This document shows, piece after piece, positions 13,458 to 32,677 of a stretch of 37,857 nucleotides of DNA. Every line of letters starts with the position of its first letter. Within the stretch, counting starts at the first letter, position 1. The position numbers and the translations under genes are program-made. The stretch is from a virus. The notes under the pieces are model-generated. The model saw nothing but the letters and a program-made list of their open reading frames with translations, made no database searches and had not been told where the DNA came from. The stretch lies in the IMG/VR virus record IMGVR_UViG_3300046008_001555, positions 1-37,857 of that record; one strand, given 5' to 3'.

Positions 13458-14534
13458 ATGACCCAACTTTTTGACCTAGCCCTCTTTATCGGTCGTTTTT
13501 GCCCTTACCATTCAGGACACCACCGTGTGGTTGAGACTGCACTGGAAAAGGCCCAGCACCTAGTGATCCTTGTGGGCTCTGCCCGCAGCCCTCGTAGCCA
13601 CCGAGTGCCCTTCACGTTCATTGAACGACGCGATATGATCGAGCAGAGTCTCTCCGCCGAGCAGCGAGCTCGAGTGCTAGTGATGCCGCTGGAAGACAGC
13701 ACCTACAATGATGCACGCTGGATTCAAAACGTGCAGAATCTTGTAGCACAGGCACAGGCACGCTTTGGTCAGGATCCAGGCACCAGCACAGTTACACTGA
13801 TCGGGCACAGCCGAGACCACAGCAGCTACTACCTCAGGATTTTTCCGCAGTGGCACAGCACCAACGTGGAGAGCTTTGGCAACATAAGTGGCACCAACAT
13901 CCGCAACAGCTACTTCAGCAACATGGGCCACATGTGGGTGCAGGATGCTGATGGGCACAAAGCAGGCGATTTGCCGCGTGATGCACTGGTGAGCACTCCT
14001 GTGCAGCAGTTTCTCCAGAAGTTCATGAGCACAGACAGCTACAAGAACATTCTGGAAGAATACAAGTTTGTTTTGGACTACAAGGCCTCGTGGCAGAGTG
14101 CGCCTTACCCGCCGACTTTTGTGACTGTAGACGCTTGTGTGGTGCAGAGTGGTCATGTGCTGCTGGTGCGACGTGGTGCCAGGCCCGGCAAAGGGCAGTG
14201 GGCTATGCCAGGTGGATTCATTAATCAGAACGAGCGTATTAATCATGCCGTGCTGCGTGAACTACGTGAGGAAACTCAGCTTCGTGTGCCTGAACCAGTG
14301 TTGCGTGGCAGCATTGTGGATCAGGAAGTGTTTGATGATCCCAACCGCAGCAGCCGTGGGCGAACTATCACTCACTGTTTTCTGATCAAGCTGCGCGATG
14401 ACACGGCTCTGCCCAAGGTCAAAGGCAGCGATGATGCTGACAAGGCCCTTTGGATCCCCATCAGTGAGCTGCGTCCGGAAGATCACTTTGAGGATCACTA
14501 CCATATGATTCAGGCCATGCTAGCTCGCATTTAA
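13458..14534 (+). CDS. bifunctional NMN adenylyltransferase / Nudix hydrolase
   Basis: A 358-aa two-domain enzyme like NatV of Vibrio phage KVP40 and bacterial NadM-Nudix. Domain 1 joins NMN to AMP to give NAD: GRFCPYHSGH (12-21, the HxGH motif) and ISGTNIR (143-149). Domain 2 is a Nudix hydrolase, box at 253-275 (GFINQNE...LRELREETQL), with Gln instead of the usual Gly near the end; such domains often act on ADP-ribose. It uses the product of NAMPT (16998), completing nicotinamide salvage. It has its own early promoter and a leader element shared with NAMPT. Start ATG 13458 is fixed by the family N-terminus. Confidence 0.93.
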   Translation: MTQLFDLALFIGRFCPYHSGHHRVVETALEKAQHLVILVGSARSPRSHRVPFTFIERRDMIEQSLSAEQRARVLVMPLEDSTYNDARWIQNVQNLVAQAQARFGQDPGTSTVTLIGHSRDHSSYYLRIFPQWHSTNVESFGNISGTNIRNSYFSNMGHMWVQDADGHKAGDLPRDALVSTPVQQFLQKFMSTDSYKNILEEYKFVLDYKASWQSAPYPPTFVTVDACVVQSGHVLLVRRGARPGKGQWAMPGGFINQNERINHAVLRELREETQLRVPEPVLRGSIVDQEVFDDPNRSSRGRTITHCFLIKLRDDTALPKVKGSDDADKALWIPISELRPEDHFEDHYHMIQAMLARI

Positions 14535-16997: not shown

Positions 16998-18407
16998 ATG
17001 TTCAATTTTGATAACATCCTGTTGGATGTTGATAGTTACAAATTCAGCCATGCGTGGCAGTATCCCCCAAATACAACAAATATTTTCAGCTACGTGGAGA
17101 GCCGCGGTGGGCTGTTCTCTCGCACACTTTTTTACGGCCTGCAGATTTGGCTCAAGCGCCGACTTAGCACCCCCATTACCATGCAAGACGTAGATGAGGC
17201 AGCAGGATTTGCAGCCGCGCACGGTGTGCCATTCCATCGCGAGGGCTGGGAATACATTGTGCGTGAACATCAGGGACGACTGCCTGTGGAAATTCGTGCA
17301 GTGCCCGAAGGCATGGTAATCCCCACCCACAATGTGCTGGCCACAGTAGTCAACACCGACCCCAATGTGCCTTGGCTCACTAGCTTCCTAGAGACTGCTC
17401 TACTACGTGCTGTTTGGTACCCCACCACAGTTGCCACACTGAGCTGGCATGCCAAGCAGACGATTCGAGCTGCACTGGAGAAGAGCAGTGACAACCCCGA
17501 AGCTGAACTGCTGTTTCGACTGCACGACTTTGGCGCTCGTGGTGTCAGCAGCGATGAAAGCGCCCAGCTTGGGGGCAGTGCTCACCTGGTGAACTTCCGG
17601 GGCACTGACACTATTGCAGGCATCCTTGCAGCCCGACGCTACTACGGTGAGGCCATGGCAGGGTTCAGCATCCCTGCTGCCGAGCACAGCACTATCACCA
17701 GTTGGGGTCGCGATGGCGAAGCTGAGGCCTATGGCAACATGCTCACACAGTTTGCACGCCCAGGCAGCATCCTTGCAGTGGTGAGCGACAGCTACGACAT
17801 CATGAACGCGGTGAACCATATCTGGGGCAAAACACTGCGAGATCGTGTGCTATCTAGCGGTGCCACACTTGTGGTGCGTCCCGACAGTGGTGATCCGGTT
17901 GTGGTGCCGGTAGATGTTGTCGAGGCGCTGGGCGAGCGGTTTGGTCACACTGTCAACAGCCGGGGTTACAAGGTCCTGAACAAGAGTGTGCGTGTGATCC
18001 AGGGCGATGGCATGAACATCCACAGCATCAAAACTTTGTATGACAACCTGCTAGCACGCGGCTGGAGTGCAGAAAACGTAGCTGTGGGCATGGGTGGCGG
18101 CTTGCTACAGAGTGTCACTCGCGACACGCAGAAGTTTGCCATGAAAGCCTCGGCTGCATGCGTCAACGGCCGGTGGCAGGATGTTTACAAGGATCCTGTT
18201 ACTGACCAGGGCAAGCGCAGCAAGCGTGGGCAGCTGGCACTGATCCGCAGCAACGGTATTGGCAACAGCCAGTGGGTTACGGTGCGTGCAGACAGCCAGG
18301 AAGGCCGGAGCAACATCAATCATCTAGTAACAGTCTACAAGGACGGCCAGCTGATCAAAGACTGGACTTTCCAGGAAGTGCGAGATCGCAGCGAACTATC
18401 TCTGTAA
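16998..18407 (+). CDS. nadV: nicotinamide phosphoribosyltransferase (NAMPT)
   Basis: A full-length (469 aa) NAMPT, which joins nicotinamide to PRPP to give NMN, the first step of salvage. All family landmarks are present: DSYKFSH (12-18), YVESRGG (32-38), HDFGARGVSS (176-185), GSAHLVNFRGTDT (193-205), the active-site His230 in PAAEHSTITSWG, SDSYDI (263-268), RPDSGDP (294-300), QGDGMN (335-340) and GMGGGLL (364-370). NMN would pass to the enzyme at 13458. It has both early and late promoter signals and the shared leader. A strong terminator follows. Phage NAMPT plus NMN adenylyltransferase pairs are known to rebuild NAD during defence-driven depletion. Confidence 0.97.
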   Translation: MFNFDNILLDVDSYKFSHAWQYPPNTTNIFSYVESRGGLFSRTLFYGLQIWLKRRLSTPITMQDVDEAAGFAAAHGVPFHREGWEYIVREHQGRLPVEIRAVPEGMVIPTHNVLATVVNTDPNVPWLTSFLETALLRAVWYPTTVATLSWHAKQTIRAALEKSSDNPEAELLFRLHDFGARGVSSDESAQLGGSAHLVNFRGTDTIAGILAARRYYGEAMAGFSIPAAEHSTITSWGRDGEAEAYGNMLTQFARPGSILAVVSDSYDIMNAVNHIWGKTLRDRVLSSGATLVVRPDSGDPVVVPVDVVEALGERFGHTVNSRGYKVLNKSVRVIQGDGMNIHSIKTLYDNLLARGWSAENVAVGMGGGLLQSVTRDTQKFAMKASAACVNGRWQDVYKDPVTDQGKRSKRGQLALIRSNGIGNSQWVTVRADSQEGRSNINHLVTVYKDGQLIKDWTFQEVRDRSELSL

Positions 18408-24454: not shown

Positions 24455-24645
24455 TGGCCTACAAAGGTGACACAGTGAAGTTTCGAGTCAGCAGCCCCAA
24501 CGGCACCTGGCGCACCCGGGACACGCTGGAAGAAGCTGAGGCGGAGATTGACACCTTGGTGGTCTCCTATGGAGTGGCATGGGCTGCTATTGACAGGATC
24601 GAGACCACAAGGATCGTTGTGCGGCAAGCCAAGGCTGAAAAGTGA
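24451..24645 (+). CDS. hypothetical protein, 64 aa
   Basis: A small basic protein overlapping the RNA ligase stop by ATGA; GGGAG lies just upstream. VKFRVSSPNGTWRTRDTLEEAEAE suggests a short beta-hairpin followed by a helix. No function is assigned. It is the first of a run of small genes co-transcribed with the ligase. Confidence 0.65.
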   Translation: MMAYKGDTVKFRVSSPNGTWRTRDTLEEAEAEIDTLVVSYGVAWAAIDRIETTRIVVRQAKAEK

Positions 24646-24899
24646 TGGCTAGACTGCCTTACACAGCCACATTGGCAGGCCTTACAACTAAAGATATAGT
24701 TGATGTGCAGTATTGGTGTCTTCAGCTGTGGCCATACACTCATGGAGCCACATGGAATCGAGGCTTCGGGGTGCATGCCTTAATGGGATCTGGATACTCA
24801 TGCACCTGGAGTTTTCAGTTTCGGGAAGATCTTACCATGTTCCTGCTCACATGGGGTCATTTGGTTGAATCTAGCCCATCATTGCAAAAGGAGTCCTGA
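24645..24899 (+). CDS. small protein of the LTWG-type family, 84 aa
   Basis: The region FREDLTMFLLTWG (about residues 62-74) is like the C-terminal ends of the small proteins at 29698 and 30181 (ALLFTLTWG, VMQFMLTWG). The rest is Trp/Tyr-rich. The start overlaps the previous stop (TGATG). Function is unknown; I take it as one of a scattered paralogous set. Confidence 0.65.
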   Translation: MARLPYTATLAGLTTKDIVDVQYWCLQLWPYTHGATWNRGFGVHALMGSGYSCTWSFQFREDLTMFLLTWGHLVESSPSLQKES

Positions 24900-26176: not shown

Positions 26177-26221
26177 TTGCACGCAAGCATGAAGCCATGC
26201 TTGCGTGCAATATCTGTTTTT
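26177..26221 (+). terminator. strong rho-independent terminator
   Basis: A perfect 15-bp stem (TTGCACGCAAGCATG 26177-26191 with 26196-26210) and an AAGC loop are followed by TATCTGTTTTT. It closes the early block upstream. Confidence 0.85.
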
Positions 26222-26228
26222 ATAAATA
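26221..26228 (+). promoter_or_regulatory. late promoter, exact TATAAATA
   Basis: An exact match to the T4 late octamer, starting at the terminator T-run and 99 bases before the first gene of the transport cassette. I see no reading frame in the 26229-26327 leader. Confidence 0.7.
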
Positions 26229-26327: not shown

Positions 26328-27152
26328 ATGAGAAAGTTGATAACCATATTTTTCCTAGCGTTTTCCATGCTGGGAATAACGCAAGCAGCAGGCAAAGAAC
26401 CTCCTCCTGACATAAATCAAATACGTTCACGAGGCTATCTCATCGTGGGCATGACCAAGTTTGATAGCCCACCGTTTTATTCAGGAGGGGCAGATAACAT
26501 CCGGGGAATTGATGTAGACATTGCCAAACGGGTGGCAGAGTATCTGGGAGTGCAAATACGGTTCCGTCGCGATGCAAACAGCTTTCAGGAAGTTGTGGAT
26601 CAAGTGGTCCTTGGCGAGATAGACCTTGCTGTTAGCAAGCTCAGCATAACAGGGCCCCGTATGCAGATGGTGAGATTTTCCACACCCTATGTGAAGTTGC
26701 GACAAGCCATGATAGTCAATCGTTTGTGGTTTAGCCAAAATGGCACAGGCAGAGATTCAGTTGAGTCCATACGCGGGTTCAATGGCACGATAGCCTTCAT
26801 GCGCAACAGCAGCTATGACACGTTTGCACGCATCAACTTTCCGCATGCACAGTATGCGCCCATGGACAACTGGACTGATGTGGTCACTGGCGTAATGAAC
26901 GGCACATTTGCAGCGGGATTTAGGGACGAATTTGAGATCAAACGAATAGCTTGGGAAAGACCCGAGGCCAGCATCAGCACCAAAACCATCACAATAACGG
27001 ACTTGGTTGACAGCATTGCCGCCGCAGTGGATTACAAATCTGTCACGCTGTTGGCGATTGTAAACCACGTTATAGAAAACGAATTCAACCGCATAGACAC
27101 CCGGCGGTTGATCACTATGTATAGAACACAGCATCTCAATGGAGTCAAGTGA
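26328..27152 (+). CDS. periplasmic solute-binding protein, family 3 (amino-acid type)
   Basis: A 274-aa exported binding protein. The signal peptide is residues 1-20 with a likely cut at TQA/AGK. The mature part follows the SBP_bac_3 pattern: RSRGYLIVGMT (34-44), PPFYS, RGIDVDIAKRVAEYLGV (about 61-77), LGEIDLAVSKLSITGPR (about 96-112), then FSTPYVKLRQAMIV. This family binds polar amino acids for ABC importers. Here no ABC permease or ATPase is present; instead the next gene, overlapping by TGATG, is an SLC1-type symporter. It starts at ATG 26328 after AAAGG. A phage-encoded binding protein of this type is unusual. Confidence 0.88.
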   Translation: MRKLITIFFLAFSMLGITQAAGKEPPPDINQIRSRGYLIVGMTKFDSPPFYSGGADNIRGIDVDIAKRVAEYLGVQIRFRRDANSFQEVVDQVVLGEIDLAVSKLSITGPRMQMVRFSTPYVKLRQAMIVNRLWFSQNGTGRDSVESIRGFNGTIAFMRNSSYDTFARINFPHAQYAPMDNWTDVVTGVMNGTFAAGFRDEFEIKRIAWERPEASISTKTITITDLVDSIAAAVDYKSVTLLAIVNHVIENEFNRIDTRRLITMYRTQHLNGVK

Positions 27153-28405
27153 TGATAAAAAAGGTACTCACAAATCCCATTACTGTGCTGTTGAGCATTG
27201 CAGCAGGTGTTCTTGCTGGAATGTTTTTCCCAGAAGCCAGTATCAGCATGGAGGGCGTGGGCGGCATCTATCTCAGCCTGCTCAAGGTCACTGTGCTTCC
27301 CTTTCTTTTTGCCACAATATTAGTGGGGGTAGTTAGCTTATTACAACGAGATGGTGCAGCCAACCTTATCAAAAGGATTATTTTTGGATTTCTTATTAGT
27401 ATGGTGCTGGCATCAGCTGTGGGTATAGCCAGCGTGGTGTTCACTGCCCCGGAGATGACACCAGAAAAAACAGTCAGTCTTGGCTCACTTGTCAACAACA
27501 AGGACACAGGTGCAACCGATCTTGATGTCACTATGAGAGAGCCCATGCCCCTGCCACCAGAAATAAACCCCTTTAGCGTGTTTGGCAAGTTCATACCGGA
27601 AAACATATTCGCCAGCCTCAACAGTGGAGAAAGTCTCAAGGTTGTAATATTCTGCTTGATATTTGGCATAGCATTGGGACAAGTGAAAGCAGCAGGATTG
27701 GTAATAATAACAGATGCCCTCAACGCTGTGCAGACTGCCAGCATCAGCATATTCAAGTTCCTAAACTACTTTTTACCGTTTGCACTGTTGGCAATGATAT
27801 CCAGCCAAGTGGCCAAGGTAGGTGTGGCGATTTTCAGCACCATGTTTGATTTCATAGGACAGCAGGCACTGGGCGGTCTAGCAGTAATGATCCTAGCCAC
27901 ATTAGTGCTATGGATGCGCTCTCAAGTCAGCCTCGTTGCGTTGCTGTCAACCATGAAAGAAACTGTAATCGTTGCCATCAGTTCTCGCAGCAGTTTGGCT
28001 TGCATACCATATGCACAAGAAGCACTGACCAAACTGAAGTTTGAACGCAGTGGAGTTGAGCTCATGGTGCCCCTGAGCTTTACAGTGAATCGCATAGGCA
28101 GCATAACCTATTACGCCATTGCCACGTTGTTTATTGCCAACATCTATGGGATAAACCCCGGATTGGCAGGCTATGTGGTAATCTTGCTTGGCAGTGTGCT
28201 GGCAGGGCTAGCAAGTGCTGGCACTACCGGTGTTCTCACTGTGGCCACTGTGGCCATAGTATGCGACCTTCTCAAACTACCACATGAAGCTGTGATAGTG
28301 TTGTTAATAGCAGTGGATCCAGTAATGGATATGATTAGGACGGTTGCGCATGTTTATGGCAATGTTGCTGTCACGGCATTTGTGTGCGATAGAGAAACGA
28401 CATAA
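27152..28405 (+). CDS. SLC1/DAACS-family amino acid or dicarboxylate symporter
   Basis: A 417-aa membrane transporter with the glutamate/aspartate symporter (GltPh-like) layout: about eight membrane segments plus hairpin HP1 (SSRSSLA, 277-283) and HP2 (GLASAGTTG, about 352-360). The TM8 substrate motif D393-M-I-R396-T is kept, so an acidic substrate is plausible. The TM7 NMDGT motif is NRIGS (313-317), and the TM8 Asp that binds sodium is Asn404, so usual sodium ligands are missing. The start ATG 27152 overlaps the binding-protein stop; a GGAG is 7 bases upstream. Location: inner membrane. It may import or export amino acids late in infection. Confidence 0.88.
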   Translation: MIKKVLTNPITVLLSIAAGVLAGMFFPEASISMEGVGGIYLSLLKVTVLPFLFATILVGVVSLLQRDGAANLIKRIIFGFLISMVLASAVGIASVVFTAPEMTPEKTVSLGSLVNNKDTGATDLDVTMREPMPLPPEINPFSVFGKFIPENIFASLNSGESLKVVIFCLIFGIALGQVKAAGLVIITDALNAVQTASISIFKFLNYFLPFALLAMISSQVAKVGVAIFSTMFDFIGQQALGGLAVMILATLVLWMRSQVSLVALLSTMKETVIVAISSRSSLACIPYAQEALTKLKFERSGVELMVPLSFTVNRIGSITYYAIATLFIANIYGINPGLAGYVVILLGSVLAGLASAGTTGVLTVATVAIVCDLLKLPHEAVIVLLIAVDPVMDMIRTVAHVYGNVAVTAFVCDRETT

Positions 28406-28432
28406 CCAGGCAAACTATAGGGGTATCTGCTC

Positions 28433-29041
28433 ATGACAGCTGATATAAAAGACACGTTATTCAAAGTCCTTGAGTGGGTGGGACACAGTCCGGTTAGGCT
28501 GTTCATCCTCAGCGTAATCGCCATGTTTGGTATGGCTATGTGGTTCGTTTACACAGAAAAAGATGCCTTTATGGCCAGCTATCGAGCGCAACAGGCCCTT
28601 CCCAGGATGAATGGCAAATACGACGAAGCCACTGCCTTCATAATGAAACAAAGCGATGCTGAACTGGTGGCCATATTTGAAGTAAATCCCTTGCTAAACA
28701 CACGTCGCATGGTTTACATGACCATCAAACCCGACGTGCGAATCAAAACATACGACGGCGTTGATGTTGGGTTGTTCACCAATAATCAGGACAACAATAA
28801 GGACGTAGTGGATCTCATGAGCGGCAACATACCCTGCTCGGAATATACTCGACCACAGAGCTTGATAGGATTTTACTATCTAGAAAAAGGTGTCACCTAC
28901 ATGTGTAGGATCAGCGTGCCTCCTGAACCATCTAAGTTTATCGGACAGATCTCAGTGGGATGGAAAGAAAAACCCAGTGATGAGGCAAGAATGCATACCA
29001 TCATCAGGATTGCGTCGGAGATATTGTGGAACCGGCAATAA
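28433..29041 (+). CDS. membrane-anchored protein of unknown function, 202 aa
   Basis: One membrane segment (about residues 22-41, RLFILSVIAMFGMAMWFVY) is followed by a 160-residue domain that by charge rule should face the periplasm. The domain has two Cys that could pair, and a beta-rich middle. No family is recognised. It is the third gene of the cassette with the binding protein and the symporter and could be an accessory subunit, by position only. Confidence 0.7.
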   Translation: MTADIKDTLFKVLEWVGHSPVRLFILSVIAMFGMAMWFVYTEKDAFMASYRAQQALPRMNGKYDEATAFIMKQSDAELVAIFEVNPLLNTRRMVYMTIKPDVRIKTYDGVDVGLFTNNQDNNKDVVDLMSGNIPCSEYTRPQSLIGFYYLEKGVTYMCRISVPPEPSKFIGQISVGWKEKPSDEARMHTIIRIASEILWNRQ

Positions 29042-29450: not shown

Positions 29451-29723
29451 ATGAGCGACAACTTGAGCAACGACTGGGATTGGGAAGAATTCTTCCATCA
29501 ATTTCCCTGTGGTGCGGCTGTGATTTTTGGTACCCATGTGGTGCATGCTGTAGGGTATCCTGCACCAGTCTCGGACATTGACGAAACTGAATTGCGTAAA
29601 GAGTTGGCAGAAGATCACGAGCTGGAACTGACCCTTCTCCGGGATTACTCAGTCATGCGATTGGAAGGAGATAACTGGAGGCTGTTGATGCAGCAGTATG
29701 CAGGTGCAGATAGCACGATCTAA
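29451..29723 (+). CDS. hypothetical protein, 90 aa, acidic
   Basis: An acidic soluble protein (SNDWDWEEFF at the start, DIDETELRKELAEDHELEL in the middle). ATG 29451 follows AAGGAT. No family is recognised. Its last 26 bases overlap the next gene. Confidence 0.65.
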   Translation: MSDNLSNDWDWEEFFHQFPCGAAVIFGTHVVHAVGYPAPVSDIDETELRKELAEDHELELTLLRDYSVMRLEGDNWRLLMQQYAGADSTI

Positions 29724-29949
29724 AATTTCAAATGAGCTCAAGAAGCCACGCCGAGGTTGGACTAGGGTCACATTGCCCAATCTGATCAATCCTTGGCGTG
29801 AGTTGCTGAGCGGTGTGCCATCAACTGTGTCAAAGATTGACGACTGGCTGGCAGGAAACACCTCTGGCAAATGCAAATACATTCGATACAACACATGGGA
29901 CTTCAAACGCCAAGAGGATGCCCTGTTGTTTACCTTGACGTGGGGATAG
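29698..29949 (+). CDS. LTWG-type small protein, 83 aa
   Basis: The C-terminus RQEDALLFTLTWG matches the endings of the genes at 24645 and 30181. The N-terminal half is basic. The start ATG 29698 overlaps the upstream gene and its RBS is weak, so the start could be later. Function is unknown. Confidence 0.6.
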   Translation: MQVQIARSKISNELKKPRRGWTRVTLPNLINPWRELLSGVPSTVSKIDDWLAGNTSGKCKYIRYNTWDFKRQEDALLFTLTWG

Positions 29950-29950
29950 C

Positions 29951-30190
29951 ATGTGTGAAGTGGTAGTTGATGCTCACAAATGTTTGAATACATATAAGTG
30001 GGCCACTGAGTTCAAAGACGCTAGGACCTTGCAAGGTGTCTGTCAGCAAATCTCTACTCTGTCACACACATATATACAGCCTCTTGAGTGGGTAGATCCC
30101 AATGACCTAGAGATGGAAACATGGTGTCTCTTCCGTGGCCGGTTCCCCACACAGGAAGCAGCAATGGAATTTATTCTCAAATGGCAATAA
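29951..30190 (+). CDS. LTWG-type small protein, 79 aa
   Basis: The ending RFPTQEAAMEFILKWQ is a variant of the F-x-L-x-W-G motif of its neighbours. WCLFRGRF before it is a strand-like segment as in the others. ATG 29951 follows the upstream stop by one base. Confidence 0.65.
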   Translation: MCEVVVDAHKCLNTYKWATEFKDARTLQGVCQQISTLSHTYIQPLEWVDPNDLEMETWCLFRGRFPTQEAAMEFILKWQ

Positions 30191-30408
30191 AAATTACAAA
30201 ACTTCCTGCAGACACATCTTGGTATGCCAGGATTGATCTTGATGAAAAAGAATGGCCACCCCTTGACGAGGATGACGATTGGTTTAATCGTCCAATCCGC
30301 CAATGGGTTTATGATAACTGCTATCCCGGTATATTCTTTGCTGCCAAGGGCTGGATCCTCTTTGAACGGGAGGAAGATGTCATGCAGTTTATGTTAACTT
30401 GGGGCTAA
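30181..30408 (+). CDS. LTWG-type small protein, 75 aa
   Basis: The ending FEREEDVMQFMLTWG is the clearest copy of the motif; the middle is acidic (LDEKEWPPLDEDDDW). The ATG at 30181 overlaps the previous gene by ten bases. The frame open from 30121 is not used. Function is unknown. Confidence 0.65.
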   Translation: MAIKITKLPADTSWYARIDLDEKEWPPLDEDDDWFNRPIRQWVYDNCYPGIFFAAKGWILFEREEDVMQFMLTWG

Positions 30409-31447: not shown

Positions 31448-31727
31448 TCAGGATCTGGCGAAGAAATGCACACAGGTTTGCCTCTCTTCGCCTCATATTT
31501 GCAACTGCGATCTCATGCCGGGACGTAGAATCTATCTCACAGAACAAGAGCGCGAGGATTATAGACAACGGTATGCCCTGGGCGACTCAAATTGGAGTGA
31601 GCCCTTTGAACCATGGGTGGTTGAGACGTGGCAGAAACACATCCAAGCACAAGGTTTGGATAAAAAAGCTCGGGCTTTTTGGCAGCGCCGAGAACGATTG
31701 ATCCAAGAGCTAAGTAAAAAACGCTAA
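31431..31727 (+). CDS. hypothetical protein, 98 aa
   Basis: The N-terminal part is Cys-rich (CTQVCLSSPHICNC, four Cys and one His, possibly a metal site); the C-terminal part is charged and helical. It overlaps the upstream gene by 17 bases; ATG 31431 has GGGGA nearby and ATG 31440 is possible. Function is unknown. Confidence 0.6.
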   Translation: MILMNSQDLAKKCTQVCLSSPHICNCDLMPGRRIYLTEQEREDYRQRYALGDSNWSEPFEPWVVETWQKHIQAQGLDKKARAFWQRRERLIQELSKKR

Positions 31728-32014
31728 TGGACCACAGAGATCAACCGGGCATTTACAAGTTTACATTTGTTTCCAGCAATAACTATGTGGTAAAACTAGC
31801 CAATATCAGTTATACACACAGTCCAGAAGTTGTCAGCTGGTTGCATGACAAGTTTGGTCCAGAGGATCTCGAGTATTGGCCTAAAGTTGCAATGAAATCT
31901 GGTGATGTACCTTGGCATATTTGGAAACGAGGCACTGTGGTTCATTACACTATACAAGAATTCTATTTTACCAACGCCGGGGACGCAATGGAGACCTGGC
32001 TGACATTCTCCTGA
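31727..32014 (+). CDS. LTWG-type related protein, 95 aa
   Basis: The ending FYFTNAGDAMETWLTFS is a diverged form of the F-D-A-x-x-F-x-L-x-W motif of neighbouring small proteins. The start ATG overlaps the previous stop (TAATG). Function is unknown. Confidence 0.6.
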   Translation: MDHRDQPGIYKFTFVSSNNYVVKLANISYTHSPEVVSWLHDKFGPEDLEYWPKVAMKSGDVPWHIWKRGTVVHYTIQEFYFTNAGDAMETWLTFS

Positions 32015-32026
32015 AAGGAAACATTT

Positions 32027-32677
32027 ATGCTAGACACTATGGCTGAAGTAATGCGCACTGCCTACGACCGCGGCTGGATCACCACCAAGGATGGTAACGT
32101 GAGCCTGCGTCGCAAGGTGCAAGATTGCCTTTACATCACTCCCACAGGAGTAAGGAAACAGCATCTCACCAGCGAGAGCATGATCAAGCTCTATTTTGCT
32201 GAAGATCACATGGCAGCTGATGCATGGGCCAACATGACTCGAGCTGACGATGAGTATCAGCAACGCATTATTGGACTGCGGCCCAGCGGTGAGCTGCCTT
32301 TTCACTATTGGCTGCAAGTGAACACACCTACTTCCAATCGAGTAGTGCTGCATCTGCATCCCACACATATCGTGGCTGCTATGTATGCAGGACTAGACTT
32401 GCAAGACATTGTGCGCGATTTCCCCGAGCTGGAGAATCACACTCGAGTAGGGCCCACAGTGGGCAAGGTGCAGGCACAAAGCGAGGACTTGGGCAAGGCT
32501 GTGGCCGAGGCTTTTGACATTCAACCCAATGGCAGCATCAACAGTCACATCATTGGACTACACATGCATGGGGTGGTTGCTGTGGATGTTGATCCCTGGC
32601 AGGCATTTGCTCATGTCGAACGCCTCAACCATGTCTGTGAGATTGTGCTAGCAGCAGGCGGAATTCGGCGCCCGTAA
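32027..32677 (+). CDS. class II aldolase/adducin-family protein
   Basis: A 216-aa member of the class II aldolase fold (FucA/AraD type), zinc-dependent enzymes that cleave or epimerise sugar phosphates. Visible landmarks: GNVSLR (23-28), TPTG (38-41), PSGELPFH (86-93, with the catalytic-type Glu89), the zinc ligands HLHPTH (109-114) and LHMHG (178-182). The length is right for the family. The start ATG 32027 follows AAGGA. What it does for a phage is unclear; it may feed sugar or nucleotide metabolism. It is the last plus-strand gene before a convergent block. Confidence 0.9.
   Translation: MLDTMAEVMRTAYDRGWITTKDGNVSLRRKVQDCLYITPTGVRKQHLTSESMIKLYFAEDHMAADAWANMTRADDEYQQRIIGLRPSGELPFHYWLQVNTPTSNRVVLHLHPTHIVAAMYAGLDLQDIVRDFPELENHTRVGPTVGKVQAQSEDLGKAVAEAFDIQPNGSINSHIIGLHMHGVVAVDVDPWQAFAHVERLNHVCEIVLAAGGIRRP

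Follow-up and report, generated by a model that had tools for sequence, protein, structure and literature searches.

Organization of the locus

The window analyzed here is the whole 37,857-base IMG/VR virus record IMGVR_UViG_3300046008_001555, in which a block of three genes occupies positions 26328-29041. The open reading frames of the block were confirmed where the initial annotation had placed them, and the terminator and exact late octamer that it had described ahead of the block were both found. The features are as follows:

26177..26210, + strand: intrinsic terminator-like hairpin with 15 pairs (8 G-C), a loop of 4, and a T-rich tail
26221..26228, + strand: T4-type late promoter octamer TATAAATA, exact match, ~100 nt before the SBP gene
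26328..27152, + strand: gene 1, binding protein (SBP), 274 aa, PF00497 match
27149..28405, + strand: gene 2, SDF/SLC1-like carrier, 418 aa, GTG start, 4-nt overlap with the SBP gene
28091..28093, + strand: codon of Arg315 in gene 2 (GltPh M311, NMD motif), invariant in 66 phage sequences
28337..28363, + strand: Arg397, Thr398, His401, and Asn405 of gene 2, invariant in the 65 sequences reaching here
28433..29041, + strand: gene 3, T-type (class III) holin candidate, 202 aa, assigned from the AF2 model, Foldseek, hhalign, and the context of locus L251

The hairpin sets the block apart from the upstream genes. Two copies of the exact octamer are present in the window versus 0.53 expected by chance, and gene 3 starts 27 nt past the SDF stop. 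Further genes of the window encode RNA ligase 1, tRNA nucleotidyltransferase, a virion structural protein, and phage NAD salvage, the latter being a pair of NMN adenylyltransferase/Nudix (phrog_395) and nicotinamide phosphoribosyltransferase (phrog_448) at 13458-14534 and 16998-18407, respectively.

Conservation of the block in phages

Scanning IMG/VR with gene 2 yields 79 loci with carrier identity of 61-72%, and the SBP-SDF-gene 3 order and strand are kept in nearly all of them where the contig extends far enough. Since the genes remain together in relatives, the idea that they are not conserved together is rejected, and their initial treatment as a unit is borne out. Median pairwise dN/dS equals 0.106 for SBP, 0.062 for SDF, 0.082 for gene 3, and 0.141 for the racemase described below. 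SBP, SDF, and gene 3 are thus all under strong purifying selection, and these values rule out decaying DNA.

The loci with the block include contigs of up to 525 kb. According to the longer records, gp23-type capsid genes are present in 10 of 38, including all six above 300 kb, so at least some carriers of the block are T4-type phages. Contamination or host DNA is excluded, as the pair recurs across many viral contigs, several of which have gp23-type capsid genes. One contig of 524,565 bases (G002) holds two complete copies of the block, L029 and L085, ~190 kb apart. As a separate observation, three matches to Gp23 or phage lysozyme contain one in-frame TAA each (G004:C1:193317-194306, G635:C1:3095-3346, and G657:C1:109720-109974), which could be due to introns, errors, or other causes.

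A pattern scan of 84,980 bacterial and archaeal species genomes reports a single close-match locus, and in INPHARED neither a close SBP nor a close SDF is found, with the SBP+SDF pair present in no cultured phage of that collection. Cronobacter phage S13 has a relative of gene 3 without an adjoining SBP-SDF pair. The SDF sequences from phages group in a single clade (SH-aLRT 96), the sister of which is one protein from a Burkholderiales MAG. Among the best 80 relatives found with the holin candidate itself, SDF is located directly upstream in 65 of the 70 with enough upstream sequence, and SBP is present in 61 of these 65. Five relatives among the best 80 have no SBP-SDF directly upstream, which implies that the holin can function in the absence of the pair.

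Late expression and the fourth gene

Of 72 relatives, 34 (47%) have the exact octamer no more than 100 nt ahead of the SBP start, and with at most one mismatch in the same 100 nt the value rises to 88%. For the other genes in the same loci, which serve as a control, the corresponding values are 3.2% and 23%. No exact octamer precedes the SDF or gene 3 starts in relatives. This enrichment, which within the block concerns the SBP gene alone, supports the earlier proposal of a single late block. The junctions are also tight: from SBP to SDF they are mostly -4 to +15 nt, 51 of 56 relatives have SDF and holin genes that overlap by 4-38 nt, and the junction between holin and racemase is often -4 nt.

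Of 69 relatives whose sequence extends far enough, 59 have an Asp/Glu racemase gene downstream of the holin; except in three, it is the very next gene. Among the best 80 relatives found with the holin, the racemase gene directly follows it in 54 of the 74 with enough downstream sequence. The protein has a PF01177-type fold and keeps both catalytic cysteine motifs, PCNTAH and GCTE. Its closest PDB entries are the aspartate racemases 3s7z (E 4.5e-48) and 1jfl (E 5.9e-41), and it is far less like MurI. The gene is absent from the window and its nearest branch, which explains why the initial annotation could not see it.

The binding protein and the carrier

Gene 1 belongs to SBP_bac_3 (Pfam PF00497, E 4.9e-17), and its best PDB matches are amino-acid SBPs (E 2e-15). 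The N-terminus appears signal-peptide-like by eye, and the ligand-site residues Arg111 and Asp200 are invariant in 62 of 62 sequences, so the family-3 identity assigned at first is retained. Family-3 SBPs normally serve ABC importers. Here, the partner gene is SDF, in phages as well as in bacteria, and no ABC gene is present among the scanned open reading frames of the window; a part in a pure ABC importer is ruled out by the missing ABC partner.

Gene 2 is a full-length SDF protein (PF00375, E 3.4e-60, 204 bits, residues 12-412) whose relatives include GltPh/EAAT. Positions were mapped to GltPh by eye from alignments. In common with the SLC1/DAACS symporters (GltPh, DctA, GltP), the phage carrier has the full-length PF00375 domain and the substrate residues D394, R397, and T398, and it also retains R276 and the hydroxyl at T314. 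In contrast to them, GltPh M311 is replaced by Arg in 66 of 66 phage sequences and D312 by Ile, Val, or Leu, and the motif reads N-R-(I/V/L)-G-S instead of the NMDGT type. N401 is His and D405 is Asn in all 65 sequences reaching TM8. The Na3 positions are changed as well, with Y89 replaced by Phe (65 of 66), T92 by Ser, and S93 by Met, the window protein having F81 and M85.

With its Na1 and Na3 ligands lost, the carrier does not qualify as a classical SLC1 symporter. Of the DAACS/SLC1 symporter originally proposed, the family thus stands and the classical type does not; judging by the aligned residues, the carrier most likely functions independently of the classical Na1 and Na3 sites. H+-coupled SLC1 proteins have a published signature of M311L and D405N together with an aliphatic residue at 92 (PMC12668577). 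Having M311R and Ser at 92, the phage carrier matches neither known SLC1 type: an ordinary H+-coupled SLC1 protein is ruled out by the unmatched M311L and aliphatic 92, and an ordinary dicarboxylate carrier (DctA) by its residues. Since the AF2 model of the carrier is poor (pLDDT 62.7) and too weak for placing Arg315, the role of this residue is read from the alignment alone.

SBP-SDF pairs in bacteria

The initial annotation regarded a binding protein next to an SLC1 protein as a phage oddity and suggested searching for the pair in phage and bacterial genomes. It was found both in the IMG/VR loci and in bacteria, which carry SBP+SDF pairs of the same kind, so the oddity is not confined to phages. 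In the bacterial genomes sampled (398 from the phylum, 250 from the order), Arg occupies the M311 position in at least one SDF of every SDF operon that has an SBP of this family next to it, versus 0 of ~33 classical SDF loci sampled; as the SBP profile was built from this family and the flanks span ~1.5 kb, this represents a strong pattern and not a census.

Burkholderiales SBP-SDF-SDF operons sit inside T6SS clusters. The genes upstream of L158 encode ClpV-like, VgrG, and DUF4280 PAAR-like proteins, and TssK or DotU is located by the operon in L149 and L155. Comparing the operons L155, L156, and L158 with the phage block, the SBP and SDF families and the Arg at M311 are the same. An Asp/Glu racemase lies beside the SDF in L152 and L106/L156, of which L156 is one of these three operons. 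Features of the bacterial operons alone are the VgrG, PAAR-like, and Tss neighbours, a further SDF that is degenerate, and, in one case, an MscS/cNMP channel, and they contain no holin. In L158 (G001 contig C29, 5883-11015), the SBP is accompanied by two SDF-like proteins stripped of most SLC1 motifs, and the cluster also has an MscS-type channel with a cNMP-binding domain.

The bacterial pairs point to an old two-gene unit that was later joined to a holin by a phage lineage. Taken together, bacterial and phage pairing suggests an undescribed system of a binding protein and an SLC1-like carrier, bundled with a holin by that lineage.

Gene 3 as a probable T-type holin

Gene 3 has no Pfam family and matches only a PHROG lacking assigned function; no function is attached to phrog_10776, phrog_16930, or phrog_31287. 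Its AF2 model (pLDDT 88.8; helices 2-17 and 20-54, globular part 63-202) shows an amphipathic N-terminal helix, one TM helix with a bridge helix, and a C-terminal GAF-like alpha/beta domain. T4 holin T has a short amphipathic N-terminal cytoplasmic helix, one TM, a bridge helix, and a C-terminal globular periplasmic domain (PMC12162936, PMC11413866), and the topology of the model agrees with this layout (PMC12162936). In PDB, Foldseek ranks the T4 holin T periplasmic domain first (E 1.4e-5), and among its matches in the viral library are Proteus and Serratia phage proteins that bear the name holin.

The fold by itself does not settle the identity, as GAF domains reach Z of 11-13 against gene 3 in VIA-align, nearly equal to T4 T with 13.2. 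Profile comparison was carried out with hhalign between the gene 3 family and the T4/T5-type holin family, using 20 column-shuffled controls. The two families align over the full length and colinearly with a probability of 84-95% (controls at most 1.2) and scores of 43-48 (controls at most 20). The similarity is visible between families only: hhalign of gene 3 (A5) against the single T4 T sequence is not significant, and a plain HMM search with the T family does not find gene 3.

As for genomic context, L251 contains a gene 3 relative that lacks SBP-SDF and has a spanin-like lipoprotein gene as its immediate neighbour on one side and an endolysin gene (phrog_181, E 9e-77) on the other. The block of L055 is preceded, at a distance of 3-4 kb, by a spanin-like gene and an endolysin. 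An endolysin is found near the block in some relatives only, and the window has none of the GH19 or phage-lysozyme families. Among 18 records searched, 15 have one copy of the gene 3 family, inside the block, and no second convincing T homologue is present in the long records tested. The racemase is followed by another T-like holin gene in L027 (8596-9623) and L021 (4088-5124), and this gene in turn by one for a small exported Cys protein, which could be an antiholin candidate; a GH19 endolysin lies beyond it on the other strand.

The model, the profile match, the topology, and the L251 context make it very likely that gene 3 is a T-type holin. For the single-pass membrane protein first described, T-type holin is now most likely the better identity. 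A GAF-like membrane sensor in a plain transport or sensing operon would fit the near tie in VIA-align scores and the cysteines, as of the two that are invariant in the family, C135 and C158, just one aligns near C175 of the T pair (C175, C207), so that this pair is unmatched at the same positions; it is nonetheless very improbable given the Foldseek and named-holin matches, the full-length colinear profile match, the L251 neighbours, and the lack of another convincing T homologue in long records.

Given this most likely identity of gene 3, the block is best read as a late lysis operon of a T4-type phage, and not as the pure transport cassette of the initial annotation.

Possible functions of the operon

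In the proposed arrangement, one late promoter would drive an exported amino-acid SBP, an SLC1-like carrier, and a T-type holin, with a racemase next in most relatives. In the periplasm, the SBP would most likely bind Asp or Glu, in the L or D form, and pass this acidic amino acid on to the carrier devoid of Na1 and Na3 sites. That the SBP and carrier work together is probable, and an acidic substrate is fairly likely according to D394, R397, T398, the T314 hydroxyl, and the aspartate-type racemase. In the favored reading, the pair might then sense or alter acidic amino acids at the membrane and delay or trigger the co-transcribed holin, as T4 antiholins act on T. T4 lysis timing is set by antiholins binding holin T. 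Control of lysis instead of feeding is a weak inference and should be taken as a possibility, since a late co-operon can arise without functional coupling. The five holin relatives that lack the pair count against such coupling, and the racemase missing from the branch of the window and the endolysin found near the block in some relatives only likewise count against this reading. More generally, the arrangement suggests a connection between amino acids and the end of infection in these phages.

Feeding late in infection is only slightly less likely than lysis timing, and likewise somewhat doubtful. According to this explanation, SBP, carrier, and racemase supply nucleotide and protein synthesis with scavenged acidic amino acids, D forms among them, while virions are being produced, and have a promoter in common with the holin just because both are late. 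It agrees with the amino-acid SBP and SLC1 signatures, with a racemase that would render both enantiomers usable, with other metabolic genes in the window such as NAD salvage, and with the existence of like bacterial operons without any holin. Against it stand the translational overlap that ties the pair closely to the holin gene in 51 of 56 relatives and the SBP-SDF pair directly upstream in 65 of 70 holin relatives, and expression of uptake genes at the end of infection only leaves little time for payoff.

An action on the envelope is improbable. Here, racemase and carrier would shift D-Glu/D-Asp pools, weakening or editing the wall before lysis, which is in line with an Asp/Glu racemase within a lysis operon and with D-Glu being a peptidoglycan component (PMC12502697). 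The closest solved relatives of the racemase, however, are aspartate racemases and not MurI, the gene is absent from the branch of the window, and such a role needs no SBP.

Returning to lysis timing, there is a slim chance that D-Asp or D-Glu made by the racemase leaves lysing cells and is sensed in other infected cells by the SBP and Na+-independent carrier, delaying or triggering the co-translated holin. If true, this would represent enantiomer-borne chemical communication between phage-infected cells.

Comparison with known systems

No described phage system resembling this block of SBP, carrier, and holin, and no relevant phage AMG report, was found in the literature searched, in agreement with the initial statement that none was known. 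Compared with T4 holin T and its lysis inhibition (RI, RIII), the block has a late-promoter holin of the same layout. In contrast to T4, SBP and carrier genes precede the holin, often overlapping, a racemase often follows, and the sequence similarity of gene 3 is detectable by profile only. With TRAP/TAXI systems it would have in common a periplasmic binding protein and a secondary carrier, if the inference holds; the carrier here is of the SLC1 family, however, without TRAP Q/M subunits, and the SBP is of family 3.

In numerous uncultured T4-type phages, the genomes of some exceeding 300 kb, the holin gene is bundled with those for SBP, carrier, and racemase. An action of the pair on the holin would allow phages to make the time of lysis depend on small molecules. 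Should the pair serve feeding only, it would nevertheless represent an undescribed SBP-linked SLC1-like carrier that bacterial T6SS loci have as well. As the carrier Arg occupies the place of sodium-linked residues, the origin of ion coupling in the family is directly testable.

Two further observations concern the surroundings of the block. A class II aldolase/adducin family gene is located at 32027-32677 of the window (PF00596, E 5.4e-24), and an open reading frame resembling it by eye lies shortly 3' of the holin in L250 (2785-3414). Small open reading frames of the window with similar ends (F-x-LTWG or close) are present at 24642-24899, 29698-29949, 29951-30190, 30121-30408, and 31727-32014, and perhaps form a family of small paralogues around the block.
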